Virus record (IMG/VR): IMGVR_UViG_3300045010_000158
Coordinates: 1 to 43,700 of that record
Strand: one strand, 5' to 3'
DNA length: 43,700 nt
Origin: a virus
The notes beneath the pieces are model-generated. The model worked only from the letters and a program-made list of their open reading frames with translations. It was not told the DNA's origin and made no database searches. Positions 1,775 through 38,344 of this stretch are shown here, piece by piece (the first letter of the stretch is position 1; every line of letters begins with the position of its first letter). Made by a program: the position numbers and the translations under genes.

Positions 1775-1977
1775 ATGGGCAATTTTGGTGTGGGTGGTAA
1801 CAGATTGATGCTTTCTCCCTCGGCTCTAATCTTCTCAATAATTGGTTTGGACAAGTACTTGACTACTTGTTCTGGAGCGATGCCCATATCATCACAAACC
1901 GAAAGAACGCTTTCAATATATCCGGTTTTATATTTAGTAATATGCTTGTTTAAAAGATTAAGAAATTGTTTCTGCAT
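1771..1977 (-). CDS. 33: Late-transcription coactivator gp33-like
   Basis: In T4, gp33 bridges the host RNA polymerase flap and the sliding clamp to activate late promoters. This 68-residue product is shorter than T4 gp33 (112) but shares the gp33 core: YIESVLSVCDDMGIAPEQVVKYLSKPIIEKIRAEG parallels the T4 segment YLEATTAFLEENSIPETQFAKFIPSGIIEKIQSEA. Position also agrees, directly before gene 59. I chose the ATG at 1977. A TTG at 1986 would add three residues. A T4-style hydrophobic clamp-binding C-terminus is not obvious, because the protein ends in PPTPKLPI. It overlaps the end of the upstream glycosyltransferase by 20 bases. Confidence 0.78.
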   Translation of the reverse strand: MQKQFLNLLNKHITKYKTGYIESVLSVCDDMGIAPEQVVKYLSKPIIEKIRAEGESINLLPPTPKLPI

Positions 1978-3112
1978 AACCAACAAGGGGGGCTTCTCCT
2001 TTTGTTTGACGCTGCTGAATGTTATGTTGGAGTTTATTTATTAATCCAATTAACATACCATTATTATGAGGTTCATAATATCCTGGAGGATCATCAAAGA
2101 AAGTGGATTCATTAATTTTGATAGCCGTAGCAGCAGCAATAAGTTTTTCGTAATCATCAGTTGTGGTTCTGATGATACCAAAATAAGATCCGCGTAATCT
2201 AGGATATTTCGCAATAGACATACGATAGAAATTTGCGGCAATTTGTTTTGCCTCTGAAATTAATTTGTCTTTTTGCAACTCATTTGGATTTTGTTCTATA
2301 TTTTTAATTTGTTCTTCAAAGAAATTACCAGCAAACACCACCGCTTGTGCTGCTTCGGCCGGCCATGTGGAGTTATCATAAACTTCTTTTAATACATCTA
2401 AACAGATAATATCTTTACGATAAAACAATTGACGGCCATAGTAGTATTTACGGGTATGATGGTTAGGATTCTCAATAACATCTAACCGCATCATTTCTAA
2501 AATTTTATCGTTGTCGTGATTCTTTCCCACATCATCTGGATGATGAATATTATGGTCAATTATCACCTGAATATTTTTTTCATAAGGAATTAAATGTTCG
2601 TGAAACCTATACAACCACTTTGCTTTACCAGGACGCCAAATACAATTGCGAGGAAATTTGTGTCCGTACTTGGTTCTATGGTACAAACCAACAACACCAA
2701 TAGTAGAATTGGTACATTGTAATTTAGTCCGTAATTCTTTACCATTTTCTAGCACTTCATCTGCGTCAAACATAGCAATCCATGTTGCTTTGGTTGTATT
2801 TGCTAATTCTATTGCTTTGTTTCTTGCTTCAGAAAATGAATCAGGCCAGGTCATAGTGTAAACTTTTGCGCCTAATTTTTGTGCAACTTCAATGGTATTG
2901 TCTGTGCTACCTGTATCAACAATTACAATTCTGTCAGCAAATCCATCCAAACTCTTGAATAATCTTGGAAGATTTTCTTCTTCATTCTTTGTAATAAAAA
3001 CAGAAACAATATTAAAATTACGCAACGCTATCAAGTATTTTTGTACTTGTTTACCTCGTTCTAATTTTTGTTTTTTTACTTTGTTGTGTTTACGCCGTTC
3101 ATTTTTTTTCAC
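1958..3112 (-). CDS. Family 2 glycosyltransferase
   Basis: A GT-A-fold glycosyltransferase transferring a sugar from a nucleotide donor to an acceptor I cannot name. The GT2 domain starts around residue 33 after a very basic N-terminus. FITKNEEENLPR and IVDTGSTDNT (residues 65-73) are typical of the WaaE/SunS-like subgroup, and the DxD is FDADE (116-119). The start is GTG at 3112, chosen because AGGAG lies six bases upstream and there is no in-frame ATG nearby. It sits between an HNH nuclease and gene 33, which interrupts the T4 order rnh-33-59, so it looks like an accessory insertion. The C-terminal 150 residues have helical repeat character with no named domain. Confidence 0.85.
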   Translation of the reverse strand: MKKNERRKHNKVKKQKLERGKQVQKYLIALRNFNIVSVFITKNEEENLPRLFKSLDGFADRIVIVDTGSTDNTIEVAQKLGAKVYTMTWPDSFSEARNKAIELANTTKATWIAMFDADEVLENGKELRTKLQCTNSTIGVVGLYHRTKYGHKFPRNCIWRPGKAKWLYRFHEHLIPYEKNIQVIIDHNIHHPDDVGKNHDNDKILEMMRLDVIENPNHHTRKYYYGRQLFYRKDIICLDVLKEVYDNSTWPAEAAQAVVFAGNFFEEQIKNIEQNPNELQKDKLISEAKQIAANFYRMSIAKYPRLRGSYFGIIRTTTDDYEKLIAAATAIKINESTFFDDPPGYYEPHNNGMLIGLINKLQHNIQQRQTKGEAPLVGYAETIS

Positions 3113-14971: not shown

Positions 14972-15234
14972 ATTATTTCTCCTGTTCTTTTGAGTTCTTG
15001 GATACTAAGTTTAAGTCGTATACCATCTTCGACTGCCTGGGTGAAGCGATCAATGTTGGGTGTATTAGACTTGGAATTCAAAAGTTGTTTTACCAATACT
15101 TGATTCGCTATTGCTGCACTCTCTAGAGTATTTAGAATGAAGTCATATGCATTTTGAGTTAAATTAATGCAGCGAGTAGGACGCTGGTTCCAATCTTTTG
15201 CCCATTCAAAATTTGAGTCGAGATTTGGATTCAT
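14968..15234 (-). CDS. Small hypothetical protein upstream of uvsX
   Basis: Eighty-eight residues, not recognised. The core is helical ([31 protein letters not shown]), followed by [25 protein letters not shown]. It is tightly packed: its ATG overlaps the methyltransferase stop (TAATG) and its stop overlaps the uvsX start (ATGA). This supports it as a real gene translated in series with both neighbours. Confidence 0.65.
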
Positions 15235-16451
15235 TACATCAAGTTCTCCAACGAAGCAGGCTTTGACTTCGTGACTTCTGTGAGTCTTCGGTCTGCAATC
15301 TTACAGTACTCTGCATTAAGATCAATACCAATAAACTTGCATCCTTCCAACAAAGCACCTTTGCCAGTAGAACCGCTACCCATGAATGGGTCTAAAACTG
15401 TTCCACCCTTGGCACAAACAAGGCGTACAAGATACTGCATGAGAACAGTTGGTTTTACAGTTGGGTGATCGTTTCCTTCTCCACGATCTGCCTTTGAAAT
15501 TTTGGCACAATAGAAGAAACGCGCAAGCGATCCGCCTGGATCATCCAACGCTTCCAAGGTTTCGTATCCTGTGTCTTCTCCATTGTTATTGAACATTCGT
15601 GCGCCAGCAGTACGATTACGAACCATCTTGCCTGGCTTGTCCACGGGAAACTCCGCAACCACTTCGGGACTTCCATCATGCACCAAATTTGCTGGCCATC
15701 TACCACCTGGCTTGTAGGTTGGAATCTCCTTCCCCACCAGAGCGGCAGCACCAAATGCACCCTTAACTGCACCTTCGCTGTTTTGCTGACGCTGTATCTT
15801 TGTGGGATCGTATTCATCTCCCATTGGAACTCGGCATCCATCAATGTTGATGCCTCCAGTTCCATACTTCTGTACATTCTCGGCTACAGTTCCTTCTAGT
15901 GGCTTTCGTGCCATGCAGATGGGTTCGCATGATGGTTTCAGCGCAGTTCCCCATCCCTCCCATTGTTTGGCTGCATCTGTTGCTGCCTTGGTTACTGGAA
16001 TGTCCGCGCCCTTCTGCACGATCCCAACACCACCACGCGCAAATCCACCGTAGCCTTGGTTGTCTTCCACCGTAACTCCACGGGAGAATCCAACAACCTC
16101 ACGATTGACGCCGGCCGCTTTGTCGATTGCCTTGCTTACATCAAGAGATTTGGGGAATGTCTTGCTGCTAACCCATGTCACAATGTCGCGCACCTCCCAT
16201 CCTGCGTCCTCAATGGCCGCAGCAAGTCGATGGTATGTGCGTGTTCCGCTAAAGGCAAGCAGATAAGCACCTGGCTTGGCTACCCGTAGTGCTTCTATCC
16301 AAAAGTCTTTGCCTGGAACTCCACGATCCCACTCGTTGCCCATGAACTCTAATCCATACGGAGGATCGGAGACAATAGCATCCACGCTGTTCGCGGGCAG
16401 TTTACGCATCTCATCCAAACAGTTACCGTTAATGATTTTGAATTCGCTCAT
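15234..16451 (-). CDS. DNA methyltransferase, N6-adenine/N4-cytosine type
   Basis: Transfers a methyl group from SAM to an exocyclic amino group in DNA. Motif IV is DPPYGLEFMGNEWD at residues 29-42. The SAM-binding motif DPFMGSGSTGKGALLEGCKFIGID is near the C-terminus, so the order is IV before I, as in beta-class enzymes. The roughly 300-residue middle contains a variable target-recognition-like region (KYGTGGINIDGCRVP, GGRWPANLVHDGSPEV) typical of phage-borne solitary methyltransferases. No cognate restriction gene is next to it, so it is probably an orphan used for protection or regulation. It overlaps the polymerase stop as ATGA. Confidence 0.9.
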   Translation of the reverse strand: MSEFKIINGNCLDEMRKLPANSVDAIVSDPPYGLEFMGNEWDRGVPGKDFWIEALRVAKPGAYLLAFSGTRTYHRLAAAIEDAGWEVRDIVTWVSSKTFPKSLDVSKAIDKAAGVNREVVGFSRGVTVEDNQGYGGFARGGVGIVQKGADIPVTKAATDAAKQWEGWGTALKPSCEPICMARKPLEGTVAENVQKYGTGGINIDGCRVPMGDEYDPTKIQRQQNSEGAVKGAFGAAALVGKEIPTYKPGGRWPANLVHDGSPEVVAEFPVDKPGKMVRNRTAGARMFNNNGEDTGYETLEALDDPGGSLARFFYCAKISKADRGEGNDHPTVKPTVLMQYLVRLVCAKGGTVLDPFMGSGSTGKGALLEGCKFIGIDLNAEYCKIADRRLTEVTKSKPASLENLM

Positions 16452-21748: not shown

Positions 21749-22499
21749 ACCATCCAGCCTGTATCCACTCTTGCGTGACCTCATCTGCATAGGGTACACC
21801 TAGCATACATTCGGATGAATGTTTTCTGATTCTGCATCCACTCGGCTCCCACTGATGACATAGTTTTCCAACTATAGGAAAACTTTCAACTCTAGGAGAA
21901 AAATCAGTCTCTCCCGGCCACGCACATACATATTTTTTGATACCATTTTTTCCTAGCATACAACCAATAGTAGTATCATCACACCAATTCAATCTAGCAC
22001 AAGAATAGTATACTGAATCAAAGAATTTTCTGAGATAGGATACCGATTTATACCCTTCAACAACGCGAACCTGATAATCTTTTTCAACCGAAGTACAGAA
22101 TCTAACACCATCAAATGATCCAAGCCCTGCAAATCCAATAGCAGAATTTGGATATTTAGTTGCTCTCAATTCCATATGCAACTTAATGAGATCGTGATGA
22201 TACACAAGATCATCGTCAACCGTAATAATGATTGCATCGGGATCGCTTTCTCTCTTAAGAGTAGGAACTAATTTAGTATGCGATCCCCAATCTCTATCGG
22301 CTTGATGAATTTGCAACTTTGGATACTTTGATGTCCATGATGGAATTTCGTAGTCTACACCTTCTAGATCAGAATGCTTTGGTATGTTTAGATGAAATTC
22401 AAAATCTTGATAACTCTGATTAATAATACATTCTACCATAGGTTCAATAAACCTAAATCTGCTCGGTAAAGTTGTAAATGAAACAATAACTCTATTCAT
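21735..22499 (-). CDS. Glycosyltransferase (GT-A-type, DDD motif)
   Basis: The 254-residue protein opens with VIVSFTTLPSRFRFIEPMVECIINQSYQDFEFHLNIP, which is the typical start of a group of bacterial and viral GT2-like transferases. DWGSHTKLVPTLKRE and a DDD at residues 95-97 (IITVDDDLVY) follow. The acceptor-side half includes WCDDTTIGCMLGKNGI and WPGETDFS. It is cytoplasmic with no membrane segment. The start overlaps the stop of the upstream two-domain gene (22496), so it is part of a tightly coupled run of four glycosyltransferase genes. Sugar and acceptor cannot be read from the sequence. Confidence 0.8.
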   Translation of the reverse strand: MNRVIVSFTTLPSRFRFIEPMVECIINQSYQDFEFHLNIPKHSDLEGVDYEIPSWTSKYPKLQIHQADRDWGSHTKLVPTLKRESDPDAIIITVDDDLVYHHDLIKLHMELRATKYPNSAIGFAGLGSFDGVRFCTSVEKDYQVRVVEGYKSVSYLRKFFDSVYYSCARLNWCDDTTIGCMLGKNGIKKYVCAWPGETDFSPRVESFPIVGKLCHQWEPSGCRIRKHSSECMLGVPYADEVTQEWIQAGWYDAR

Positions 22500-24127
22500 A
22501 AATTTTCCTTTCTTTGCTGACCATCATAATGAAATGCTCGATTATGATTAATGGGACTTGCCAATAGACATCCTGCTTTAATCTTACCATCGACGATCAT
22601 TTGATGCACATGACTCATCCATGTTTGCTCATAGGGATGCGCCCACTTGGTTTCCAAAAAAACTTTTCGGTTTCCCTGCTTGCTGAACATCACCGGCCAA
22701 TTGCAGTAATGAAACTCTCCTACTGCATATGAGAGTCCTTCCACGGAGCCTGTATAGTATATCTTTGTTCGATTGCATACTCCCTTAATCTGAGGTCCCG
22801 GGAAGTACTGCTCTTTCTTGTCAGACGGGAGATTATGCCATGACCAGTTCAGATGATTATCTCCAAAGAATTCGCTGAATGATAACTTCAGATAATCAAG
22901 AGACTCTTTTTCCATGATGCTCATGCAGTTATGAAATAATTTTGGATCATAACGAAGCAATCCGTTTTTACATGGCTCATCTTCTTTGCCGCATAGCATC
23001 ATGTCATCTTCAAAGAACACCATGTATTCGTGTTCCGAATCCTCAAACATCTCAGCACATAGTTGCCTGGCGCCACATATTCCTAGATTCTCTGGCTTTC
23101 GGATCTGTTGAATGGAATGTTTTTTACATAGCGCAGAGAACTCATCATCGGTCGATAAATCTGTAGAGTTGTTGATCACATACTTGGAAGAATACTTGAA
23201 CACAGAATCGTGATTGCGAGTGGAGTCTATCCAAAGTTTATACTGTGCGGGAAGATTAAAGCACACCGAGTATATGCCAAGTTTGCTAGTGTTTGTGCTT
23301 TCTCTTGGCTTGCTCAGTATCTTCTCTATCCACGGAGCAATCAATCCATTTGCTCCTATCATCTGATAGTTACACAGATCAGGGTGATTATATGTGAGCA
23401 AGGTGAAAATGCTCTCTTCAGTACCCATTAATCCCCCGCCCAAACTATCTGCAAGATATGCGTAGTAATGGGCGTTGAGTTTGTTTAAGGTTTCTTTGGT
23501 TCCTCCAAATAAACCACCCCTGGCAACTCGGGTTACTGTAACTCCCCGTGCAAACTCATTCATCTTAGACGAAACAAATCCGTGAATTTCGCCTTCAGAA
23601 TCATATGGAAAACACAAGAATAGCGCAGAATCTTCCATGTATTTGACTACTTCATTTTCAAACTTCTCACCAAGCAGCCCATCCCATACTGTATTGGTTA
23701 TGCCTCCGTCTAACCACAAAAAATACTTGGTGTTATGCGTGTTTGTTAACGATGCATCATTGAGCCAAAAGAACTTTGACATAACAAGCGGATTGTATAA
23801 CTCTAACCGTGCTTGTGTGCTTTCTTCTAGCCAAGATTTTTGCTTGAACCAAGCAGGATTAGTTCTAATAGTCTGAATCTGATCGTAGAATGGCATTTTT
23901 TTCAGATCGTCAGCACCAACAAATTTAATGGTTGTATTCAATCTATCCCTATGTTGCCAAACAAAGTCTTCCAGATCAGGACTAATAAAAAGCATCATTG
24001 GACATTTCACAGCAGTCAGAAGTTTAGCAAAACATTCTTTGTAGTGATCAAAAGGGCGAGAAAATGAAGTGCCTATCTCTGCCCTTCCAATATTAATAAG
24101 ACCGCTCACTATAGTCAATGATGACAT
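22496..24127 (-). CDS. Two-domain glycosyltransferase (HtrL/WlaTC + GT2-like)
   Basis: A 543-residue fusion. Residues 1 to about 280 resemble the WlaTC/HtrL_YibB family of LPS-type transferases (LTIVSGLINIGR, YNPLVMSKFFWLNDA, KYFLWLDGGIT, FARGVTVTRVARGGLFGGT). From about residue 290 a second glycosyltransferase-like domain begins (LGIYSVCFNLPAQYKLWIDS, ENLGICGARQLCAEMF, YMVFFEDDMMLCG, where EDD is the metal-binding site) and ends in a region rich in aromatics. Two catalytic domains in one chain suggest successive addition of two sugars. AAAGGAATAAATT precedes the ATG. It starts the second half of the glycosylation island. Confidence 0.78.
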   Translation of the reverse strand: MSSLTIVSGLINIGRAEIGTSFSRPFDHYKECFAKLLTAVKCPMMLFISPDLEDFVWQHRDRLNTTIKFVGADDLKKMPFYDQIQTIRTNPAWFKQKSWLEESTQARLELYNPLVMSKFFWLNDASLTNTHNTKYFLWLDGGITNTVWDGLLGEKFENEVVKYMEDSALFLCFPYDSEGEIHGFVSSKMNEFARGVTVTRVARGGLFGGTKETLNKLNAHYYAYLADSLGGGLMGTEESIFTLLTYNHPDLCNYQMIGANGLIAPWIEKILSKPRESTNTSKLGIYSVCFNLPAQYKLWIDSTRNHDSVFKYSSKYVINNSTDLSTDDEFSALCKKHSIQQIRKPENLGICGARQLCAEMFEDSEHEYMVFFEDDMMLCGKEDEPCKNGLLRYDPKLFHNCMSIMEKESLDYLKLSFSEFFGDNHLNWSWHNLPSDKKEQYFPGPQIKGVCNRTKIYYTGSVEGLSYAVGEFHYCNWPVMFSKQGNRKVFLETKWAHPYEQTWMSHVHQMIVDGKIKAGCLLASPINHNRAFHYDGQQRKENL

Positions 24128-24268: not shown

Positions 24269-25597
24269 TTAATATCCGATATTAATTGTTTTCTCTATTC
24301 GGTGTAACCAACCTTTGCTCTTGCTATGAGGCCAAAGCACAAACTTGCTTGGAGCAGAATCCATCTTTGCAGTAAACACAACTGCAAGTTTACTGTGTCC
24401 TTCTCTTAATTCATCATTTGATTGGATTGATTTATCCCACATGATGCGCCTAGTGTCAGGTTTAAAGTCTTCTCTCCATAGAGTATCACCTGCATCATTG
24501 TGAATGGCGCACACTACAAAATCTAGATCAGTTGCTTGATGAAAGTGTTCAGGATTCCATGTCAACAAAGTAGCAAATTTACCGTCTCCATTCGGGAGTA
24601 TCTCTGCTCTTCTCTTGAAGTCTAACTTAGCGTATGCTTCATAGTCTGCCAAGGTTCTAACAGTTCCGATTCCATACTTCCCGAATACTATGTTTGGATC
24701 TGACTCCATATCAAACAACACTCTATTTCGATGATGGGATATATTGTTACGATCATACCAGTTTATACCATCAACTAAATTATTTTTGTTTGCATCTACA
24801 TGATCTACCCAATGTTTATGAATTCTATACTCACGGGTATATTCGTGCCAGATTACGGTTCTATGAGGAGAAAACAGATCATAACCATGCGTGAAACTAC
24901 GCATGGCTATAGAAATTTCTTCACCGTGAAAATAATAATTCGGATCATGCGGAACTTCTCGCACCATATCTCCAATAGAAAATGCAAAATGAGCCGAGAA
25001 AAATCTACAAGGTATAGCAGAAGTTAACTCATGAAAGCCTTTTCCATTTCCCGCCCAAAAATTACTACCATCAATGTAATGTGGTTTAAAAAACACACAG
25101 CCTTCGGGGGTAAACCGATCAAACTCCAAATACAAAGCATGATCCTTTTCCAACAAATTATCATGCTGTCTGCCTCGATGTTTTTCAGGATTAAAAGGAG
25201 TTGCATAAGCGGTAAGTATTGGTTTCTTGTGGCCTTTAGCCTGTAAATCTTTTATCCAACCAATTAAGGTTTCGTCCCAATCTTGAGCAAAGCGATGATG
25301 AGAGTCTAATTGTAGAGTATACTCTTCTCCATCATACAACTGTTCTTGAATAGAGTTGCGGGCCCAACAGGCTCCTTTGCTGTTATTCCACCGCACATCA
25401 ATAATCTTGAATCTCGGATCATTTTTAAATTCCAACAGTTCAGAATCCCACGAATCAGTAACTTCATGCTGCCAGCATATTCCAAAACGCAGACGATCAG
25501 GATACTTAGCCTTGTCTAAACAATCCTTAATGGTAGGAACTAGTTCAGGATCACGATACGCAGCAATCTGTATGAAAATACGATCATTATTTGGCAT
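24269..25597 (-). CDS. GlcNAc transferase-like glycosyltransferase (PF11397-type)
   Basis: The 442-residue protein matches the Glycosyltransferase (GlcNAc) family related to Skp1 hydroxyproline GlcNAc-transferase: IFIQIAAYRDPELVPTIKDCLDKAKYPDRLRFGICWQ at the start, GACWARNSIQEQLYDGEEYTLQLDSHHRF with a DSH in place of DxD, FWAGNGKGFHE and YFHGEEISIAMRSFTHGYDLFSP. After about residue 320 an extra C-terminal beta-rich domain of roughly 110 residues has no named match. The family transfers GlcNAc, but the phage acceptor is unknown. It overlaps the upstream DUF1599 gene by 11 bases. Confidence 0.85.
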   Translation of the reverse strand: MPNNDRIFIQIAAYRDPELVPTIKDCLDKAKYPDRLRFGICWQHEVTDSWDSELLEFKNDPRFKIIDVRWNNSKGACWARNSIQEQLYDGEEYTLQLDSHHRFAQDWDETLIGWIKDLQAKGHKKPILTAYATPFNPEKHRGRQHDNLLEKDHALYLEFDRFTPEGCVFFKPHYIDGSNFWAGNGKGFHELTSAIPCRFFSAHFAFSIGDMVREVPHDPNYYFHGEEISIAMRSFTHGYDLFSPHRTVIWHEYTREYRIHKHWVDHVDANKNNLVDGINWYDRNNISHHRNRVLFDMESDPNIVFGKYGIGTVRTLADYEAYAKLDFKRRAEILPNGDGKFATLLTWNPEHFHQATDLDFVVCAIHNDAGDTLWREDFKPDTRRIMWDKSIQSNDELREGHSKLAVVFTAKMDSAPSKFVLWPHSKSKGWLHRIEKTINIGY

Positions 25598-26466: not shown

Positions 26467-27183
26467 TCAATGTGGGTTTGTGGCATTACTAATCCCCTTA
26501 AAGTTGTTTACTAGTTTCATTGCTCTCTTAACATGAAACTTACCATGAAATCCAAACGAGTTGTCTATGGTTGGATATTTACGGCAGACGGATTCTCTCG
26601 AAAACCTCGCTGCGGTATCTTCGTCAGGAAACTTTATTCCTGCGTTGATGGCCTTCGCGTAATTATGTACACATAGAAAGATGTCATCGTATTTATATGT
26701 TTCGTGGGGTTTGTTGTGTGGTGTACCATCATAATCATCAAAGGTGGTTGACCATTTCAAAAACTTTCTGCTTCTAAGACAGAATCCGCTATTTCCTACA
26801 TTGTTTGGAGAAGTTTTCGGTAACCACCATTGAGTCCCGTGAAACCACGGTGCGCCCACATAATCGTAATCAAGAAACCCATCTTCCCAAAGGTCTGGTT
26901 TGAGAATGAACCCGTCTGTATGGACATTTAGGCAATAATCGGATTGTATGATATTTGGAAGATCGCGCACACTCCACCTATTGTATCCATTATATGTCAT
27001 CTTCGGAACTCCCATGCGGGTAATCCCATCATACGATGCATTTACACCACCACCTGAAACATGAAGAACCGAATGAAACTCTATATCCTTCATACACCAT
27101 CGAAGAACTCTGTCCATTAACTCAGATTCGGTTCCTGTTCCATCTATTCCCACAAGAGTAACTTGGTGTAATTTTCGTTTCAT
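26467..27183 (-). CDS. DUF5672 glycosyltransferase-like protein
   Basis: The 238-residue protein has the DUF5672 signature: YNGYNRWSVRDLPNIIQSDYCLNVHTDGFI (the HTDGF segment carries the acidic residues), then WEDGFLDYDYVGAPWF, NVGNSGFCLRSRKFLKW and the C-terminal NSFGFHGKF. DUF5672 is treated as a GT-A-like glycosyltransferase family, and its sugar is not known. The start overlaps the GT25 stop as ATGA, so the two are coupled and likely act on the same glycan. Confidence 0.82.
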   Translation of the reverse strand: MKRKLHQVTLVGIDGTGTESELMDRVLRWCMKDIEFHSVLHVSGGGVNASYDGITRMGVPKMTYNGYNRWSVRDLPNIIQSDYCLNVHTDGFILKPDLWEDGFLDYDYVGAPWFHGTQWWLPKTSPNNVGNSGFCLRSRKFLKWSTTFDDYDGTPHNKPHETYKYDDIFLCVHNYAKAINAGIKFPDEDTAARFSRESVCRKYPTIDNSFGFHGKFHVKRAMKLVNNFKGISNATNPH

Positions 27184-28707: not shown

Positions 28708-29036
28708 TTTTTCAAAATGTTGTACAGTTCTTCGTTGAGTTCTATGCTGAAGCGTGATTGAATTTCTGTGTCCTTTTGTACCACCAGAGCAATATGATCT
28801 TGATGCACTAGGTCTAGATCACCGTAATGATTTTCTCTATTGGTTGCTAATTCCCAATATACATCATCTCCCACTTGGATATCCTCGGTGACACCATTTC
28901 CAACAGCAACAACACTGGCAAACACATAATGTCCTTTGGTCGTGTTGTCATTGTAGATGATTCCACTATCGGTTCTTTTCTCTTTGCCTAGATCGGTTCG
29001 CACCGCAATCCATTTACCAATCGGTCTTATACTCAT
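28704..29036 (-). CDS. GroES-like co-chaperonin
   Basis: A 110-residue Cpn10-fold protein. IRPIGKWIAVRTD, the loop KEKRTDSGIIYNDNTTKGHYVFASVVAVGNG and VGDDVYWELATN follow the GroES layout. The mobile loop carries SGIIY, corresponding to the GGIVL that docks on GroEL. T4 gp31 and other phage co-chaperonins replace GroES for folding the large capsid protein. Unlike T4 gene 31, this gene is embedded between gp44 and gp62 with ATGA overlaps on both sides. It could also serve another phage protein. The C-terminal 30 residues are an unusual charged extension. Confidence 0.75.
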   Translation of the reverse strand: MSIRPIGKWIAVRTDLGKEKRTDSGIIYNDNTTKGHYVFASVVAVGNGVTEDIQVGDDVYWELATNRENHYGDLDLVHQDHIALVVQKDTEIQSRFSIELNEELYNILKK

Positions 29037-29980
29037 TTAAACTCACACTCCATCATAATCTCTGTGAGACAAGCAGCCATGTTAATTTCTGCATCAGCCA
29101 CAAACGCTGCTTTATATTGATACTCGGCTAGAATTAGAATCAGTTTCGGTATACTCGATGAAGCGAAGCACTCATACATGGACTCATAAATCTTACGAAA
29201 CAACGATGCAGAATCGGCATCAGAATTCTCTACAACCCACTTGCGAACAGAAATAAAGTCTTTGCCTTTCAAAGCAGAGATGAGTTCTTTGATCTTAATT
29301 TCGCCAAGTTGAATCAGAATTCCCACATCAATTTTGCCAGACACCGAATATCGCTGCAATTCATTCAAAATGCGGCGAAAATCAGGAAAATACTTCATTA
29401 TGAGTTCAACAAGCACCTTTTCATCATATGCAATACCTTCCGCATCTAATATGCCCTTGACTCGTTTAAGCATCTGTTTGGCAAGTGCAGGTCTTTCTTT
29501 GACAGGAATTTGAAAATTAATGCAAGTACACCGCGAGTGTAGAGGTTCGATAATTCTGTTCTTGAAATTACAAGTCAAAATGAACCGGCAGTTTGCACTG
29601 AATTCTTCCATGAATCCACGCAAAGCAGGCTGTGTGCTTTGAGCATTTGAATAATCAAATTCGTCAAGAATTACAACTTTCTTGTTGCCCGACATGGATA
29701 CAGTACTAGCAAAATTTCTGATGCGAGTACGAAGCGTATCAATATTTCCGTCTTCTGAACAGTTTACAATAATGTAATCGCTGTCAACTTCGGCGCATAA
29801 AGCGCGAGCAATCGTGGTCTTACCGCATCCTGCACCACCAGATAACAGCAAATTCTGCACTTCGGCTGACTGCGCCATATCGGTGAAAGTCTTTTTCATT
29901 GCAGACGGAAGAATGCAGTCTGCGATCACCTTCGGGCGATACTTCTCCACCCAAAGGTAATCTGTTATTATTGCAGACAT
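29033..29980 (-). CDS. 44: Clamp loader large subunit gp44
   Basis: An AAA+ ATPase that opens and loads the gp45 ring. The 315 residues (T4: 319) include LWVEKYRPKVIADCILP (T4-type start), Walker A GGAGCGKT (48-55), Walker B ILDEFDYSN (DEFD at 106-109), sensor LTCNFKNRI and the arginine-finger SRC (LHSRCTCINF). The C-terminal helical collar is present. It is separated from gp45 by only three bases. Confidence 0.96.
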   Translation of the reverse strand: MSAIITDYLWVEKYRPKVIADCILPSAMKKTFTDMAQSAEVQNLLLSGGAGCGKTTIARALCAEVDSDYIIVNCSEDGNIDTLRTRIRNFASTVSMSGNKKVVILDEFDYSNAQSTQPALRGFMEEFSANCRFILTCNFKNRIIEPLHSRCTCINFQIPVKERPALAKQMLKRVKGILDAEGIAYDEKVLVELIMKYFPDFRRILNELQRYSVSGKIDVGILIQLGEIKIKELISALKGKDFISVRKWVVENSDADSASLFRKIYESMYECFASSSIPKLILILAEYQYKAAFVADAEINMAACLTEIMMECEFK

Positions 29981-29983
29981 TTT

Positions 29984-30700
29984 TTACTCCTTATAGGCAG
30001 TGTTTGAAGTTGCCTCAAGAGCAACAAAATAAATTAAATCCTTACTACAATGTGAGAATTTAGCAACAATACTTTTACTGATATCAACTGTATAATCGCC
30101 AGGCATAAGTTTAAGATTATCTACCTTCATATGAATATCAAACTTAGTTTTAGCCTTGTTTTCTCCAACAACTATAGAATATGTGTTAGAACCCTTATCT
30201 GTCTTATCAAGCAATACCACCTCAATTTTGTCTTTTGTTCCACGCACAGAAATATCACCAACTTGTAATACAGAACTCGCTCTCATGATCTCGGCAACAT
30301 TGTCTGCGGTCAACTTGAACGATACAAGAATATCCGGCATAGTAATGCTCTTTTTGGGAGCAGTAAGTAGGCTTGGTTCACAATAGTAGTAGGTTACACT
30401 TGGTGCATTTTTGCGAGAAGCATCTGATATCAATACAGACTTCTCTCCAAATGTCAGCATGGGTTCTTTGAACAGAGAAATTACACCAAGAAATTTGTTC
30501 AAGTCCCAAATACCAAATTGAATGTCAAAAGTTTCTTCTACAGTTGCTTGAGCCATAACATTCTTTACAGTGGTAATTGTAGAGAGAGTATTGCCTGGAC
30601 AAATAAGAATATTTGAATTTAAAGAGGCGAAATTCTTGAGAACAGCAAGAGTTTCTTGTGAAAGTTTCATACCAGTTTCGTTTTCAATAGCAGTAGTCAT
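29984..30700 (-). CDS. 45: Sliding clamp gp45
   Basis: A trimeric ring that tethers gp43 and, in T4, also activates late transcription with gp33 and gp55. The 238 residues (T4: 228) align at MKLSQETLAVLKNFASLNSNI (T4 MKLSKDTTALLKNFATINSGI), WDLNKFLGVISLF (T4 YDLNGFLGILSLV) and MKVDNLKLMPGDYTVDI (T4 MANMKMQPGNYKLLL). Compared with T4 there is a ten-residue N-terminal extension (MTTAIENETG). The start is supported by GGAG at seven bases. A promoter candidate lies about 40 bases upstream. Confidence 0.95.
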   Translation of the reverse strand: MTTAIENETGMKLSQETLAVLKNFASLNSNILICPGNTLSTITTVKNVMAQATVEETFDIQFGIWDLNKFLGVISLFKEPMLTFGEKSVLISDASRKNAPSVTYYYCEPSLLTAPKKSITMPDILVSFKLTADNVAEIMRASSVLQVGDISVRGTKDKIEVVLLDKTDKGSNTYSIVVGENKAKTKFDIHMKVDNLKLMPGDYTVDISKSIVAKFSHCSKDLIYFVALEATSNTAYKE

Positions 30701-31716: not shown

Positions 31717-32586
31717 TTAAAACTCCGAAACAACTTCTAATAAATTTTTCATTTTATGATCTATAAGATAAGAAAGAATATTTCCATTACGAGATGAATC
31801 AGACTCCTTATAACTTTTTAAGATACTATTCTCTAACTCTATTGGTATATATCTAAAATCTACAAGGCAACGATTACGATCCCAATTTCTTTTCACTTTG
31901 TTCGGACAAGTTGCTTTGGTGTCCACCTGATTACCCATCACAAGAATCTGCTCTTTGATAGCAGCAGACTTCTTACTCGTTAAGGGGGTCTGGCGCTTTC
32001 CATCTGTAATCAAACAATCATCATCAGACAATATATTAGGAATACCATCCCCCGAGTCACCGCTCATGATATGATTCAATAAGAACTCTGTTGGGTTCTT
32101 ACACACCACAAATCCTTTTGTTGCAGGACTCCATTGCCGAACATTTGGATAAATTTGTAACTGTTGAAAATCTTTGTCGCTAGACACAATAACAATTTGC
32201 TCCTTATTAGAATAATATTTAGTCAAAGTAGCGATAACATCATCTGCCTCTGCTCCCTTCACTTGCAAATGCCGATACGGAAACACACCACGAATTTCTT
32301 CGCGGATTCCATCAATCATACCATAAATTGCCTTCCAATCAACATCCGAAGAGGCCTTTGCTTTGACCCTGTTCTGCTTGTATTGAGGAAATACAGCATT
32401 ACGCCAGCATTTACCACCCTCATGGCACAGTATAATCTCTCCAGCATCTCTAAACTTTTGTCTGTATGTACGATAAATATTTAGAACTGTATGTCGTAGC
32501 AAATCTTCTGAAAATTGAGTTGCATCGCCTTTTGTAAGAGCGAACAGGCTTCCCAATATTACTTGGTTATTATCAATTAGAATCAT
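31717..32586 (-). CDS. rnh: RNase H / 5'-3' exonuclease
   Basis: Removes lagging-strand RNA primers (FEN1/T5 exonuclease family, like T4 RNase H). Metal-binding acidic motifs in order: LIDNNQ (D4), ILCHEGGKCWRNAVFPQYKQNR, KGAEADDVIATLTKYY, IVSSDKDFQQLQ and HIMSGDSGDGIPN. The 289 residues compare with 305 in T4. The start overlaps the upstream stop as TAATG. In T4, rnh is near 33-59-32. Here it is in the clamp operon, so it has moved relative to T4. Confidence 0.9.
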   Translation of the reverse strand: MILIDNNQVILGSLFALTKGDATQFSEDLLRHTVLNIYRTYRQKFRDAGEIILCHEGGKCWRNAVFPQYKQNRVKAKASSDVDWKAIYGMIDGIREEIRGVFPYRHLQVKGAEADDVIATLTKYYSNKEQIVIVSSDKDFQQLQIYPNVRQWSPATKGFVVCKNPTEFLLNHIMSGDSGDGIPNILSDDDCLITDGKRQTPLTSKKSAAIKEQILVMGNQVDTKATCPNKVKRNWDRNRCLVDFRYIPIELENSILKSYKESDSSRNGNILSYLIDHKMKNLLEVVSEF

Positions 32587-33692
32587 TAGTAGGATCCAAC
32601 AAGAACACAGTTCTCATTAATTCTTCCACTCATTTTTAATGGTTTAGTTTTGATGAAATTCAAAACATTTTGCACAGAACGAATTCCTGTTAATTTACTC
32701 AACACATCTTTAGGTTTACGAAGTTTCTTGGATAAAGATTTGACTTCATCATAATTAACAATGGTGGTTCCTTTTACACCTAGTCCACGGGGATCCTTTG
32801 CAAAGAATACAGTTAGTGTACGATACTTTTCATTAAGGACAATCACCACTTCACTGCCAATAATTTTCTCTGGTGATATGCTTTTAATCCCATACTCTTT
32901 TGACTCCGGCAAATACTTCATCTTTTTAATAATTTGACTAGGACTTTTTTGCTTCTTCTTACGAGGAGTTCTATCACATTTCTTTTCATCTGCAAATGCA
33001 CGGAAAATATTGACAGTTTCTGAAAGCATCTGTATAAGTTTCTTTAGACGAGGTTTAGTTAAAAAGGAATATCCCTCCACCAGTTGCTCATCTTTGCCAT
33101 CATATGCAGATACCATCTCTTGCAGATAATTAGTTTCGATATATCCTGCAATTTTACCGCAATGCAATGGTTTAATTTTATGGGTGATCGCCCACCCCTT
33201 TGGGTCAAAATTCATATTACATTTGTTTGTATAAGCATCTATAATAGAATCTACCAACACATCAACATCACCCAAATATTCACGATATTTTTGCTCTGTA
33301 CGCTCTTTTATAGAAGGCAAATCAGATTTCTGGCGTTTAGAAAGAATAACAGCACCTGTGTTTTTCAGGGAATTTATATCTGTTGTAATTTTTTGTTTGG
33401 TTTGCTCGGTTAAAGGTGCGCCTCGTGAAAGCATTCTACACAAATAACCAATACTAGAATAACTCTTGATACCATTTTGGGCAACACATTTAATATCTTC
33501 AGCATTCATCTTGATGTACTTACAGTAATCCAAAACCCATCGCTTTTTTTCTCGGTTGGATCCTTTGTTCCAATACCAATTAAAAGCCTTCTGGAGTGCA
33601 AAGTCTACCTCATTTTCTGTGGCGTAAGACTCTGCACCCCAAACAGGCTCATTACCGTATGCCTTTTCAAGCGTTTTCGTATAAGTTTTCAT
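32586..33692 (-). CDS. Conserved-looking protein of unknown function (368 aa)
   Basis: I do not recognise a domain. The N-terminal third has a helical region with WYWNKGSNREKKRWVLDYCKYI and VAQNGIKSYSSIGYLCRMLSRGA. The middle has LGDVDVLVDSIIDAYTNKC and a very basic stretch (RTPRKKKQKSPSQIIKKMKYLP). The C-terminus is beta-rich (KIIGSEVVIVLNEKYRTLTVFFA, GLGVKGTTIVNYD). The basic patch and its coupling to RNase H suggest a DNA- or RNA-handling role, which is inference only. It has the best sigma70 promoter in the window, placed so close that the mRNA should be almost leaderless. Confidence 0.75.
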   Translation of the reverse strand: MKTYTKTLEKAYGNEPVWGAESYATENEVDFALQKAFNWYWNKGSNREKKRWVLDYCKYIKMNAEDIKCVAQNGIKSYSSIGYLCRMLSRGAPLTEQTKQKITTDINSLKNTGAVILSKRQKSDLPSIKERTEQKYREYLGDVDVLVDSIIDAYTNKCNMNFDPKGWAITHKIKPLHCGKIAGYIETNYLQEMVSAYDGKDEQLVEGYSFLTKPRLKKLIQMLSETVNIFRAFADEKKCDRTPRKKKQKSPSQIIKKMKYLPESKEYGIKSISPEKIIGSEVVIVLNEKYRTLTVFFAKDPRGLGVKGTTIVNYDEVKSLSKKLRKPKDVLSKLTGIRSVQNVLNFIKTKPLKMSGRINENCVLVGSY

Positions 33693-33729: not shown

Positions 33730-34974
33730 TTAATTTACAAGTTTAGGTTTAAATGTTTCCGACTTGATAGGTGTAGTAGTAGAAGAAGAATTTACAACAT
33801 TAACAAGGCTACGAGAAAGGGCAAGAACACCCAAATACGGATCCATATTGGCAGATGGACGACGATCTTCAATATAAATCAAGTGAGATGTATCATCTGA
33901 TACGGTTGTCGTAGGGAATTTCCCACACCACCCCGTAGTCACAGGGATAGTAGTAACGCACAAAGATGCGCTACGATCACCAAATCCCCAAGTAAATTTG
34001 TTAAAATCACTCGTTCCTTGAGTTTTTCCGACCAAACGAGTCTCGTTTCCACTACCATATGATGCCATATGCTCACTATGATCTTTTCCAATTGTTTCAC
34101 AAATATGTCTAGCATTATCTGCAAGTATCTGGCGATCATTCATGTAAATACGAATATTACAGGCGTTTCCATTCCATTCCGTGCCAGGAAAACTTTTTGG
34201 CTGGTAACTAATAACACATCTAGGCTTTTCTGAAGATTCTGCTGCTATTTCCAGCAGGTATCTTGTCAAGACTAATGTATCACAGGCAGTTAGAATATCA
34301 GTTTCTTTTGTGGAGTAAGACCATTGAGAAAGACAAATTCCTGCGGTTTGAGAAGTTAATTCAATTCCTGTTTCAAGACATATATTGGTAAACCGATCAA
34401 ATATTTCTCTTCCCCGCTGAAAATCGCCAGATCCACCATAATATCTTCCTTGAGGTCCTGGAAATATTACTTGAGTTTCACCCTTATCATCTTTTCCAGT
34501 TGGCCAACGATAAGGCTGTCGAGTATCTGGATCTATAAACAATATTTCTTGTTCAAATCCAATATGTACATTACTCATATCATTTTTACTGATAAACTTG
34601 TGAAGACTTGCTCGGGAATTGGTAGCGTGTGGAGTTCCATCTGCGGTTTGCACTTCACACAACACAATACCACGATTATTAGAAGGACCTAGAATGCGAA
34701 CAGGAACCAAGAAAAGATCTGCATTATCTACCGATGCTTGTTTGCAAGCAGAACCATCAAATCTTTGTATCTTTGGTGTTTCTCCTACAGAAAAATATCT
34801 TGCACTGCGAATTGTTCCGTCTCCAGCCAACCAAACATAATTCCAATGAGTTAAATTTGTTTTTGTTTCACCTACATGAGTTGGTGGTTTTTCGGAATTA
34901 GATGGATCATTACAGCACTTCATCTTTTTTCTACCACTAGTGTCTACGGGTTCATTCTTTTCATTCTTTGACAT
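33730..34974 (-). CDS. Glutamine synthetase-like protein (GSII type), probably non-catalytic
   Basis: A 414-residue homologue of eukaryotic-type (class II) glutamine synthetase. Fold landmarks are clear: YVWLAGDGTIRS, ADLFLVPVRIL, IGFEQEILF, FPGPQGRYYGG, WNGNACNIRIY, DRSASL and IEDRRPSANMDPY. By eye-alignment to the human enzyme, the first two metal glutamates (E141, E143) and the EDRRPSAN loop are kept. Other essential positions are changed: E196 to G212, E203 to S219, H253 to N273, the HETSN loop Glu to Gln/Gly near 319-320, and the RIP arginine to Cys. A roughly 35-residue hydrophilic N-terminal extension is present. Normal synthesis of glutamine is therefore unlikely, and a regulatory or altered function is more plausible. 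AAGGAG precedes the ATG. Confidence 0.85.
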   Translation of the reverse strand: MSKNEKNEPVDTSGRKKMKCCNDPSNSEKPPTHVGETKTNLTHWNYVWLAGDGTIRSARYFSVGETPKIQRFDGSACKQASVDNADLFLVPVRILGPSNNRGIVLCEVQTADGTPHATNSRASLHKFISKNDMSNVHIGFEQEILFIDPDTRQPYRWPTGKDDKGETQVIFPGPQGRYYGGSGDFQRGREIFDRFTNICLETGIELTSQTAGICLSQWSYSTKETDILTACDTLVLTRYLLEIAAESSEKPRCVISYQPKSFPGTEWNGNACNIRIYMNDRQILADNARHICETIGKDHSEHMASYGSGNETRLVGKTQGTSDFNKFTWGFGDRSASLCVTTIPVTTGWCGKFPTTTVSDDTSHLIYIEDRRPSANMDPYLGVLALSRSLVNVVNSSSTTTPIKSETFKPKLVN

Positions 34975-34985
34975 TCTAAATCTCC

Positions 34986-36611
34986 TTAATGGGGTTTATA
35001 AAACACATACACTGGTTCATACTTCATGTAATCACCTTTCACTTTACAAAAATTCTTACACATGGGTAATCCTGTCTCTTCATCAAGACGATTCTGCCCA
35101 GGCATAGATTCCATAGCCATCTTCACTTTATATTTATACACAAGTCCAAATTCTTCAAGAATTTTCTGTGAATCTTTTTCTAGAGGAATATAATCTCCTC
35201 CAATCTGAATATCGGCAATGTTCCACAGCAAGTAACGATCAGGCTTCAAGAACTCTGCACAAGTCTTTAGCGTTGGGCGAAGAAATCCATCGCGCCAATT
35301 TTTATAAGAAGAACCGTATTTCTTGTATGATTGATTCTTGTCTTTTGAATAGGCTTCACGGTTAAAATAAGGAGGACTAGTAAAGATCATGTCAATCTTA
35401 CCTTTATACTTCTTGAAATTCGGATCTTTGCCTATTTCTTCAGAGCCTAATCTGTAGATTTCATAAGTATTGGTTTCGCTGAAGAATGGATTGCCTCGAT
35501 AAGTCTTTGTGTTGTAGAAGTCTGCAACATCAGCATAGCGAGGACGCTCCTCTCCTGTTTCTTCATCAATATAATACAGTTCAGGATTTGGATCAGTTCC
35601 AATGTAATGAATCTTACGATCATCGCGCACACTCATGGCGCCTAGAATACGACCACCCCATCCTGATGACGGATCGTAAATCACAAGCGGAGTCTTTTGA
35701 TCTTTAACATGATCGGTAAATCGTTCGTACAAATACTTGGCAGTCATGGGCGGGAAATTGTGTGCCACCTGAATGTATCCGATACGGAAAGCAGCAAACC
35801 CTTTTGGAAAAACTCGCTCGCCCTTCTTGTAGATGCGAATGGTGTATACCCGATCATCAGGCATAGCACTCACATCAAAAGTAGAGAAATGCCGATACTG
35901 CAATACTCCCCCATCCTTCAGTTGTTGTACTTGCTCTCGCGTAAGATTCAAAATGTCAGACTGATTCAGTTGGAAATATCCTGTATTGTTTCCTTCACGA
36001 ACCTTCACCTGTTCAAGCATGAAGTCGTAGCCTTTGAAGATTTCTTTGTTGGTTTGGAACGCATTGATCCAAGACAAAGCATCAGGCACAGACACAAGAG
36101 CAGGCTTTGGATTGTTACGCAAGCACGACAAGGCGTGCATATAGAGTGAGTCTCTACGGAAGTGCCGCATTGATCCCTTCACCATACGATCTAAAAACCT
36201 ATCTTCAGCAAACAATTCATAGATGGAGTATCCATCGTCCTTTTCGCTGTAGTTGATGCGAGTCTTCATCATGGTCGGGAACCATTGATCCACTTCAGAA
36301 CCAAGTCTTGCCTTGTTCAATATCACATCTTTACCAATATCTTCTAGTTCATCATCAAATTCCAACGACTTCACAGGATACTCAGCCATCTTGTTCCACT
36401 CTTCGATAATGTCTTCTTCAATCTTTCCGATGCGCGGAGGACACCCCTTGTTGTCCCAAATATCGACAACGGTTTTACGCATATTAATAACCCACTTGCG
36501 GAACTTGCCTTCGTCCATCTCTAGCAGTTCTTCAAAAGTCACATTAACTGGATGGGTAAGAAGGTGAGTGTTCTTCTCAAAAAAAGTTTTGTGTGCTTGT
36601 AGAGTTTCCAT
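34986..36611 (-). CDS. Large DNA methyltransferase-like protein (SPPY type)
   Basis: 541 residues. The C-terminal 230 contain a methyltransferase core with LVIYDPSSGWGGRILGAM (motif I), IGTDPNPELY, then MIFTSPPYFNREAYS (motif IV, SPPY as in N4-cytosine and some N6-adenine enzymes) and YLLWNIADIQIGGDYIPL. Motif I precedes IV. The N-terminal 300 residues are an extra region (SMRHFRRDSLYMHALSCLRNNP, KGFAAFRIGYIQVAHNFPPMTAKYLYERF) that may recognise the target. There is no restriction partner. It has no strong ribosome binding site, but a small coding remnant with one lies immediately upstream. Confidence 0.82.
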   Translation of the reverse strand: METLQAHKTFFEKNTHLLTHPVNVTFEELLEMDEGKFRKWVINMRKTVVDIWDNKGCPPRIGKIEEDIIEEWNKMAEYPVKSLEFDDELEDIGKDVILNKARLGSEVDQWFPTMMKTRINYSEKDDGYSIYELFAEDRFLDRMVKGSMRHFRRDSLYMHALSCLRNNPKPALVSVPDALSWINAFQTNKEIFKGYDFMLEQVKVREGNNTGYFQLNQSDILNLTREQVQQLKDGGVLQYRHFSTFDVSAMPDDRVYTIRIYKKGERVFPKGFAAFRIGYIQVAHNFPPMTAKYLYERFTDHVKDQKTPLVIYDPSSGWGGRILGAMSVRDDRKIHYIGTDPNPELYYIDEETGEERPRYADVADFYNTKTYRGNPFFSETNTYEIYRLGSEEIGKDPNFKKYKGKIDMIFTSPPYFNREAYSKDKNQSYKKYGSSYKNWRDGFLRPTLKTCAEFLKPDRYLLWNIADIQIGGDYIPLEKDSQKILEEFGLVYKYKVKMAMESMPGQNRLDEETGLPMCKNFCKVKGDYMKYEPVYVFYKPH

Positions 36612-36752: not shown

Positions 36753-37682
36753 TCAAGTTGTAGAATTCATTATGCAATAAACCTCAGTTTTACTTAGTCT
36801 GCGTCCAACCACCCAAAAGCAAGTGCGCTTGTTCATATCAAGATTCTCACGCATCCACTTGTGGGCCTTTGCTTCATACAGATCGTCAAGAAGTGTACCA
36901 TCTGCTGTCTTTTCTGCAAGAGGTTTTCCATACACAGTATTTAGACAATGTAATTCGTAGTCTGGCAGAGGATATCCCGCCATCGGGTTCACCCACTTGT
37001 TAATGTTTTCCGTGCGCTTCGGTCCAACACACAATCCGATCACTTTGCCTACACTTATTGAGTACCGATATATGCCTCTTATAATGGCAGCAAAGTGAAC
37101 TCCACTACCCACAGGCACCACAAGTTGATCCAAATTAGTTGGTAGGTTACCTACCTGATGCTCAATGCTATCAAGAATTGCGTCTTCTCTGTTTTCGATA
37201 TTATGGGTAAAGACTGCATCGTATAGTTTTTCGGCTTCGGCAATCTCGCGCATTCGAGCAAGCACAGGCCCGTGCATTCCTGTTCCACAAACATTACGAA
37301 CATCTGCTCCCAACCATTTTGCATATCGCATCATATGATGATTATCAATAGTTTCTGGCGAACTTCCACCAACACAAATCACACAAGGGATTTGTAAATC
37401 TTTGCACACTCGGGCAACAATCGCTCCCGTTGTGGAATGCACCTGCGTATGAGTTATCACTCCATTGAAATGTTTTTTTAAACCATCTCTCATGGAATAA
37501 AGAAGAGTAAAAGCCTGTCTTACTTTGCCCCCGCTCACATCTCCAATACCATACGGAGTGTACATATCATCTCGCTTGTACCACACTCCATCAATGAGTT
37601 GGACAGGTGTTCTGTTTAGAACATGAGCAGGAAACTCTTTAAAAACTCCATGCTCTTGTTGCATATCAACTTCGATGTTCAT
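36753..37682 (-). CDS. Fold-type II PLP-dependent enzyme (ACC deaminase/D-cysteine desulfhydrase-like)
   Basis: 309 residues. WYKRDDMYTPYGIGDVSGGKVRQ includes the probable Schiff-base lysine K53 in the ACC-deaminase-type GG(N)K-R context. HTQVHSTTGAIVARVCKDLQIPCVICVGG corresponds to the substrate and cofactor loop, and LVVPVGSGVHFAAIIRG is the Gly-rich phosphate-binding loop. Such enzymes act on amino acids (deamination, beta-elimination or replacement). The start overlaps the methyltransferase stop as ATGA, so the two proteins are made together. That suggests a joint role, perhaps in building or attaching an amino-acid-derived group, but the substrate is unknown. Confidence 0.8.
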   Translation of the reverse strand: MNIEVDMQQEHGVFKEFPAHVLNRTPVQLIDGVWYKRDDMYTPYGIGDVSGGKVRQAFTLLYSMRDGLKKHFNGVITHTQVHSTTGAIVARVCKDLQIPCVICVGGSSPETIDNHHMMRYAKWLGADVRNVCGTGMHGPVLARMREIAEAEKLYDAVFTHNIENREDAILDSIEHQVGNLPTNLDQLVVPVGSGVHFAAIIRGIYRYSISVGKVIGLCVGPKRTENINKWVNPMAGYPLPDYELHCLNTVYGKPLAEKTADGTLLDDLYEAKAHKWMRENLDMNKRTCFWVVGRRLSKTEVYCIMNSTT

Positions 37683-38344
37683 AATGGTAGAGTTGTTTTG
37701 GAATGATTAAAGGTCGGATCGTAGAACTTCTCTTCTAATTCACACCCCCACCATCTGCGTCCAATAGTTTTGGCGGCAAGCAGAACAGGCGCTACTCCAG
37801 CAAAAGGATCAACAACCAAATCGCCTGGTTTGGTGAGATTCTCAATCACATACTTGCAGAAGTCTTGTGACCATACAGATTGATTCAGCACTTTCTCTTG
37901 CTGATCCACATAGATGTCGCGTAACCAATCTCCCTTGCGATGAATCACTCCTTTTTTTGTGTACACAAGCATATGCTGAAAAGTAAAATAGTACATATCC
38001 CGTTTACCAACTTCATTTCTCACAACTATTTTATAGTCTTTTAGAGATAGTCCTTCTTTTTCTAAACATTTTGAATACCACATATGATTTGACATGATAA
38101 AACCATTTACCCGTCGATCTGTTTGACACACCACAACAAATCCAGTAGGCTTTACAATGCGAGCAAACTCTTGCATAATCTTTTGCTGAAACTGCCTATA
38201 CGAATCGGTTTCATCCCTACCAAACGGAGTCTGAGACAGATCGGGGCAGGAAGTAAATACCAAGTCTACAGTCTCGGAAGGAATAATAGGCAGATAGTCG
38301 AAGGCATCTCCCAACACATACGAATTCTCTTTGAAGTTTGTCAT
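37679..38344 (-). CDS. DNA methyltransferase-like protein with SCPD in place of (D/N/S)PPY
   Basis: 221 residues arranged like a beta-class DNA methyltransferase: LGDAFDYLPIIPSETVDLVFTSCPDL at the position of motif IV (SCPD at 32-35), FARIVKPTGFVVVCQTD, then GDLVVDPFAGVAPVLLAAKTIGRRWWGCELEE as motif I (DPFAG 179-183). The aromatic residue that normally stacks on the flipped base, and the first proline, are replaced. SAM binding looks intact, but the normal exocyclic-amine chemistry is doubtful. It could act on a different position or substrate. The start overlaps gene 46 and the end overlaps the PLP gene, both as ATGA. Confidence 0.78.
   Translation of the reverse strand: MTNFKENSYVLGDAFDYLPIIPSETVDLVFTSCPDLSQTPFGRDETDSYRQFQQKIMQEFARIVKPTGFVVVCQTDRRVNGFIMSNHMWYSKCLEKEGLSLKDYKIVVRNEVGKRDMYYFTFQHMLVYTKKGVIHRKGDWLRDIYVDQQEKVLNQSVWSQDFCKYVIENLTKPGDLVVDPFAGVAPVLLAAKTIGRRWWGCELEEKFYDPTFNHSKTTLPL

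Follow-up and report, generated by a model that had tools for sequence, protein, structure and literature searches.

An uncultured T4-like phage lineage encodes a protein with the fold and ancestry of class II glutamine synthetase (GS). As judged from its sequence, this pseudo-GS is a probable pseudoenzyme, namely an enzyme homologue that has lost residues essential for catalysis. The preferred reading, to which we assign a probability of roughly 0.7, is that it descends from a phage GS, is retained by selection as a pseudoenzyme and serves, without catalysis, as a partner in binding or assembly. The gene was found in the IMG/VR virus record IMGVR_UViG_3300045010_000158, positions 1 to 43,700, and this whole stretch of 43,700 nucleotides is referred to here as the window. 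A pseudoenzyme had already been suggested in a first-pass annotation of this DNA, and the suggestion has gained support from relatives, tree, synteny and codon evidence.

The open reading frame begins with an ATG codon, and its position is given in Table 1 together with those of its motifs and adjoining genes. In phmmer searches, the PDB matches of the pseudo-GS are all GS, with near-full-length alignments and Medicago GS2 (4is4, E 5e-42) at the top, and the closest sequence matches are plant and human GS (E 5e-42). An AlphaFold2 monomer model obtained from a 40-sequence alignment (pLDDT 84.6, pTM 0.83) was matched by Foldseek to maize GS (2d3a; E 1.7e-30, TM 0.85 by target length), to which the sequence identity is about 34%. 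The pseudo-GS belongs to class II GS both by fold, with a beta-grasp and a catalytic domain, and by ancestry. Fold, length and the motifs GFEQE, FPGPQG, DGS and EDRRP are common to the pseudo-GS and to class II GS enzymes (GlnII, GSII; maize 2d3a, human 2qc8), and the motifs GFEQE, FPGPQG and EDRRPSAN are present in the window protein as the first-pass annotation had stated. The Pfam Gln-synt_C score is 23 bits, just under the 24-bit cut-off, while the NCBIfam GlnII model (NF041605) gives an E-value of 3e-47 and 161 bits without reaching its 500-bit equivalog cut-off. This cut-off tells little about phage GS, since an active-type GS from a sister phage (L022) scores just 277 bits and likewise remains under it.

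Table 1. Positions in the window of the pseudo-GS gene, its motifs and its adjoining genes (residue numbers are those of the window protein; single substitutions are in maize numbering on the left).
Feature	Position	Strand	Basis or remark
Pseudo-glutamine synthetase, class II fold, 414 aa	33730..34974	-	phmmer, AlphaFold2/Foldseek, alignment
N-terminal extension, residues 1-40	34855..34974	-	Low model confidence; length differs among relatives
FDGSA loop, residues 72-76 (maize YDGSS)	34747..34761	-	Asp56 kept in 8/9; Ser59 to Ala
GFEQE, residues 139-143	34546..34560	-	Maize E129/E131 kept in window protein; E131 to Asp in other 8
GICLSQWSYS, residues 212-221, replaces EVMPGQWEFQ	34312..34341	-	E192 to Gly, E199 to Ser
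NGNACNIRIY, residues 268-277, replaces NGAGAHTNYS	34144..34173	-	H249 to Asn, N251 to Arg, S253 to Tyr
Flap RLVGKTQGTS, residues 313-322	34009..34038	-	Arg291 kept; E297 to Gln/Gly, one-residue insertion
DRSASLCVT, residues 333-341	33952..33978	-	Arg311 kept; Arg316 to Cys339
EDRRP, residues 369-373	33856..33870	-	E330 and R332 kept in 9/9
C-terminal tail FKPKLVN, residues 408-414	33733..33753	-	F[EKQ]PKLV in 9/9; follows low-confidence linker
541-aa N6/N4 DNA methyltransferase (TSPPY)	34986..36611	-	Adjoins GS in sister phages too
Downstream neighbour phrog_11903, function unassigned	32586..33692	-	Family match

The roles of the residues concerned have been described for class II GS, where, in maize numbering, E129, E131, E192, E199, H249 and E330 bind cations, R311 and R316 are substrate ligands and E297 belongs to the flap (PMC3975887). 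Five replacements at such sites had been claimed in the window protein, and the alignment places each of them exactly: E192 to G212, E199 to S219, H249 to N273, E297 to Q319/G320 and R316 to C339. Two further replacements of the same kind were detected (N251 to R275 and S253 to Y277). At 15 active-site positions compared, all of them fully invariant in 116 other class II GS (57 cellular and 59 from other phages), the pseudo-GS family differs at these seven, which include two n1 glutamates, the n2 histidine, the flap glutamate and a substrate-binding arginine and are changed in all eight aligned members.

The family was gathered by IMG/VR scans and comprises nine distinct sequences, including that of the window, from 12 contigs, all of them metagenomic fragments; members are 57-70% identical to the window protein. 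The first-pass annotation had proposed asking whether virome homologues share the substitutions, and the same seven sites are indeed changed in nine of nine sequences. The ninth member (L177) has Ser in place of Cys at the R316 site, with D56 to Asn and R311 to His as additional changes. The cation ligands E192, E199 and H249 are lost throughout the nine, flap E297 has become Gly or Gln across the family, and R316 is Cys in the members other than L177. Chance or alignment error is ruled out, as the losses recur in nine sequences in one register and HMMER pairwise alignments agree. In 75 columns, conservation among the 116 other class II GS reaches 97% or more; of these columns, 44 are kept in all eight aligned members, 12 are mixed and 19 are lost in all eight, the latter including E192, E199, Q201, H249, N251, F252, S253, R258, E297 and R316.

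On these sequence grounds, the pseudo-GS almost certainly does not synthesise glutamine. The claim that two metal glutamates and the EDRRP loop are retained was borne out by E129, E131 and E330, although the second glutamate of the EQE motif (E131) is Asp in eight of the nine family members. The presence of these three residues and of R291, R311 and R332 in the window protein speaks for glutamine still being made through an unusual site, but two n1 ligands, the n2 histidine, the flap glutamate, Arg316 and Asn251/Ser253 are gone, all of them invariant in the 116 others, and activity of this kind is exceedingly improbable. ATP-dependent amidation by the pseudo-GS is thus very unlikely, and owing to the loss of the metal and nucleotide residues, another ATP-dependent ligation is unlikely.

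Other parts of the active site have been preserved. Among the residues reported to line the glutamate site of GS (PMC8982429), Q197, N244, G245, R291 and R332 are kept in all nine members, Gly247 in seven of the eight aligned members and R311 in seven of nine. As several glutamate-site residues are kept, a putative, weakened amino-acid pocket is possible. Setting the amino-acid half of the site (kept) against the metal/nucleotide half (lost) gave a Fisher p of 0.009, a value that was obtained on hand-chosen sites, is weakened by L177 and is given no weight here.

New residues have also become fixed. Arg275 and Tyr277 occur in nine of nine members, against Asn and Ser in all 116 others, and Arg275 is invariant across the synonymous codons CGT, CGC and CGG; Cys214, Cys272, Glu224 and Asp226 are family-invariant and Cys339 is near-invariant. 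Glu224 lies at maize position 204, on the edge of the active-site cavity, with Asp226 nearby, and either could in principle form a new site. In the main rival reading, all seven of these residues would belong to a repurposed enzyme whose emptied cavity catalyses some other reaction; its substrate might be an amino acid or a nucleotide, and the metal-ATP chemistry typical of GS would not be used. Their conservation favours such a reaction, as do the kept pocket residues Arg291, Arg332, Asn244 and Gly245 and the enzyme-like nature of the neighbouring PLP-fold gene and large DNA methyltransferase. However, position 249 drifts within the family (N, I, C, V, T) and L177 alters D56, R311 and Cys339, which would be odd for an active site, and no ligase with the GS fold is known to us in which E192, E199 and H249 are all missing. 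A repurposed enzyme is considered unlikely.

Pairwise Nei-Gojobori dN/dS values are mostly 0.10-0.20 within the pseudo-GS family and 0.03-0.20 for the active-type phage GS pairs with measurable dS. Most neighbour genes are tighter (about 0.03-0.07), with the PLP-fold and phrog_11903 genes being similar to the pseudo-GS. Across the nine sequences, codon variation was detected at 148 of the 180 amino-acid-invariant columns. The pseudo-GS is present in every clade contig covering the locus (L184 stops short of it) and its reading frame is open in all contigs examined. The pseudo-GS is maintained by purifying selection and is not a pseudogene, which dN/dS and the open frames rule out. A remnant in the course of decay might be expected to evolve faster than most of its neighbours, as this gene does, and some sister phages are without GS at the locus; nonetheless, the open frames, a level of purifying selection within the range of active phage GS, the newly fixed residues and a conserved tail make decay scarcely credible.

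In the phylogenetic tree, the pseudo-GS family forms one clade with 100/100 support and a stem of 1.56 changes per column. A branch with 100/99 support separates this clade, which lies with the T4-phage GS, from cellular and most other phage GS; the exact branching point of the clade is uncertain because of the long stem. At this locus, sister T4-like phages have a GS whose catalytic residues are intact, the gene order being SbcD-SbcC-methyltransferase-GS-RNase H-clamp-clamp loader; L024 differs, with GS before the methyltransferase. The intact GS of eight sister marine T4-like phages (L022, L023, L026, L031, L043, L060, L064 and L186) share position, neighbours and the nearest side of the tree with the pseudo-GS and hold all catalytic residues. 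Since the sister phages have an intact GS at the same place, the pseudo-GS is best read as a positional ortholog of the active phage GS. In L185, L190, L192, L193, L195, L196 and L203, no GS is present at the locus and the methyltransferase and RNase H remain. These GS-less sister loci imply repeated gain or loss of GS.

The first-pass annotation had regarded GS as not standard in T4-like phages, a view that has to be revised in light of the sisters' intact genes and of the frequency of class II GS in uncultured phages, where it is widespread on contigs (at least 577 IMG/VR stretches; loci L019-L094 are among the IMG/VR loci) and also occurs in huge phages. A second, active GS was not found in the 10 pseudo-GS contigs searched, all of them fragments, and the psbA family, sought as a test of cyanophage origin, was not found in nine contigs.

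Many of the intact sister GS have an N-terminal thioredoxin/glutaredoxin-like domain that the pseudo-GS family is without. This domain is roughly 100 aa long, contains the motifs CGWC and CGTP, and has been detected on the intact-type sister GS of L019, L021, L022, L025, L028 and L031, as well as on the intact-type GS of L051, L059, L060, L064, L186 and L188. Its matches to thioredoxin/glutaredoxin families are weak (best Pfam E 9e-5, below cut-offs), and it may represent a redox domain fused to phage GS.

The pseudo-GS locus is a T4-like replication/recombination region that comprises gp32, helicase loader, UvsX and DnaB-like helicase and primase families, along with a T4-type DNA polymerase, RNase H, SbcC and SbcD; on the basis of location and sequence, 29984-30700 is a putative sliding clamp gene and 29033-29980 a putative clamp loader gene. 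The pseudo-GS gene lies 11 bases downstream of the 541-aa methyltransferase and 37 bases upstream of the phrog_11903 gene, and this tight spacing on a single strand makes co-transcription likely. A functional pairing of GS and methyltransferase is not supported, the methyltransferase being found without GS in L185, L190, L193, L195, L196 and L203. In L003 (6335-7968), two separate frames cover the 541-aa methyltransferase, probably through an assembly error, as it is whole in the near-identical L005.

Further genes of the window deserve mention. A second DNA methyltransferase of 221 aa (37679-38344, minus strand) keeps DPFAG at motif I and has TSCPDL at motif IV, where the TSPPY type is expected; the same pattern occurs in L002, L003 and L004, and this protein is possibly a second non-catalytic one. 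An insert of about 1 kb between SbcC and the 221-aa methyltransferase was observed in L017 (1825-2801) and is not in L018. A third DNA methyltransferase of 405 aa (15234-16451, minus strand) has its SDPPY motif intact. The PLP-fold enzyme (PALP, phrog_3650; 36753-37682, minus strand) is, among the phages compared, confined to the pseudo-GS clade, and its INPHARED relatives belong mostly to Salmonella, Vibrio, Klebsiella and Shigella phages (e.g. Ag3), at about 22-26% identity; a role in DNA hypermodification is conceivable. The glycosyltransferase-like, HtrL/YibB and DUF5672 genes at 1958-3112, 22496-24127, 24269-25597 and 26467-27183 (minus strand) perhaps serve DNA or surface glycans.

All nine family members end in F-[EKQ]-P-K-L-V, following a linker of low model confidence, and this ending is found on no other ORF of the 43,700-nt window; it looks like a docking peptide. 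A non-catalytic binding role is the probable one for the pseudo-GS. An ancestor of the T4-like lineage would have carried an active class II GS at the same place, beside the DNA methyltransferase, after which the lineage would have dismantled the metal and ATP chemistry, retained the fold, the subunit-completing Asp loop and several glutamate-pocket residues, and fixed new residues in the emptied cavity. The protein would then work by binding, most likely to another protein, which would be contacted through a GS-like ring or interface surface and the invariant tail, and a ligand resembling glutamate perhaps still occupies the cavity and serves as a signal. The partner is only tentatively sought in the nitrogen-metabolism machinery of the host, for instance in GS or in a regulator of the PII type, and a viral partner is just as possible.

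In a narrower form of the binding role, the pseudo-GS would join host class II GS rings and poison or redirect them, since its neighbours would receive an Asp56 loop that is still conserved and a catalytic half that is inactive. Such a decoy subunit would suit the location of GS active sites between subunits (PMC3975887), the conservation of D56 and Y158 in all eight aligned members (D56 is Asn in L177) and the occurrence of class II GS in many marine bacteria and archaea. It is nevertheless quite improbable, given that inter-ring loop 138-157 has an insertion of about eight residues and has lost Trp141 (active T4-like GS vary there too), that the subunit-completing loop is altered by Ser59 to Ala and Trp53 to Gln, and that the protein shares only about 35% identity with cellular GS.

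Known GS pseudoenzymes are class I, an example being lengsin of the vertebrate lens, a GS-fold protein considered non-enzymatic. Lengsin has a bacterial-like architecture (PMC3975887) and differs from the pseudo-GS in being of class I (bacterial-type) and eukaryotic, in its lens role and in the unrelated origin of its loss. Phage-borne nitrogen regulators have been reported in the form of viral GlnK/PII with AmtB (PMC8115048); these resemble the proposed function of the pseudo-GS as phage genes perhaps acting on host nitrogen control by binding, but have another fold and keep a functional signalling residue. Viral GS auxiliary metabolic genes have been described in metagenomes, for example in viruses putatively infecting SAR86, and are reported there as enzyme-encoding (PMC10721903). 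A GS gene in a virus is common to both cases, and the loss of catalytic residues is described here for the pseudo-GS. Further metagenome reports of viral GS exist (PMC9083009, PMC13037316), and phage class II GS as such is already known, although a phrase search of the open-licence literature returned no papers naming phage-encoded GS and phage class II GS is little mentioned there. The first-pass annotation knew of no described phage GS pseudoenzyme, and searches of open-licence papers turned up neither a phage pseudo-GS nor a clade of pseudo-GS within class II. What appears new here is a probable GS-derived pseudoenzyme in a phage, with a clean comparison of intact and dismantled forms at one locus.

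The usual assumption about viral auxiliary metabolic genes is that they code for enzymes which enhance the metabolism of the host, and annotation by fold would name the pseudo-GS a glutamine synthetase. It is conceivable, if doubtful, that an auxiliary nitrogen enzyme has here turned into a dedicated regulator whose ring surface and F-x-P-K-L-V tail would contact GS of the host, a regulator of the PII type or a protein of the phage, and whose emptied pocket may read glutamate or glutamine. If so, an auxiliary metabolic gene would have gone from making a metabolite to sensing or controlling its synthesis. The occurrence of intact and dismantled GS at one locus in related phages constitutes a natural experiment on the passage from an enzyme to a non-catalytic tool, and the pseudo-GS serves as a caution against judging viral genes functional by fold alone.
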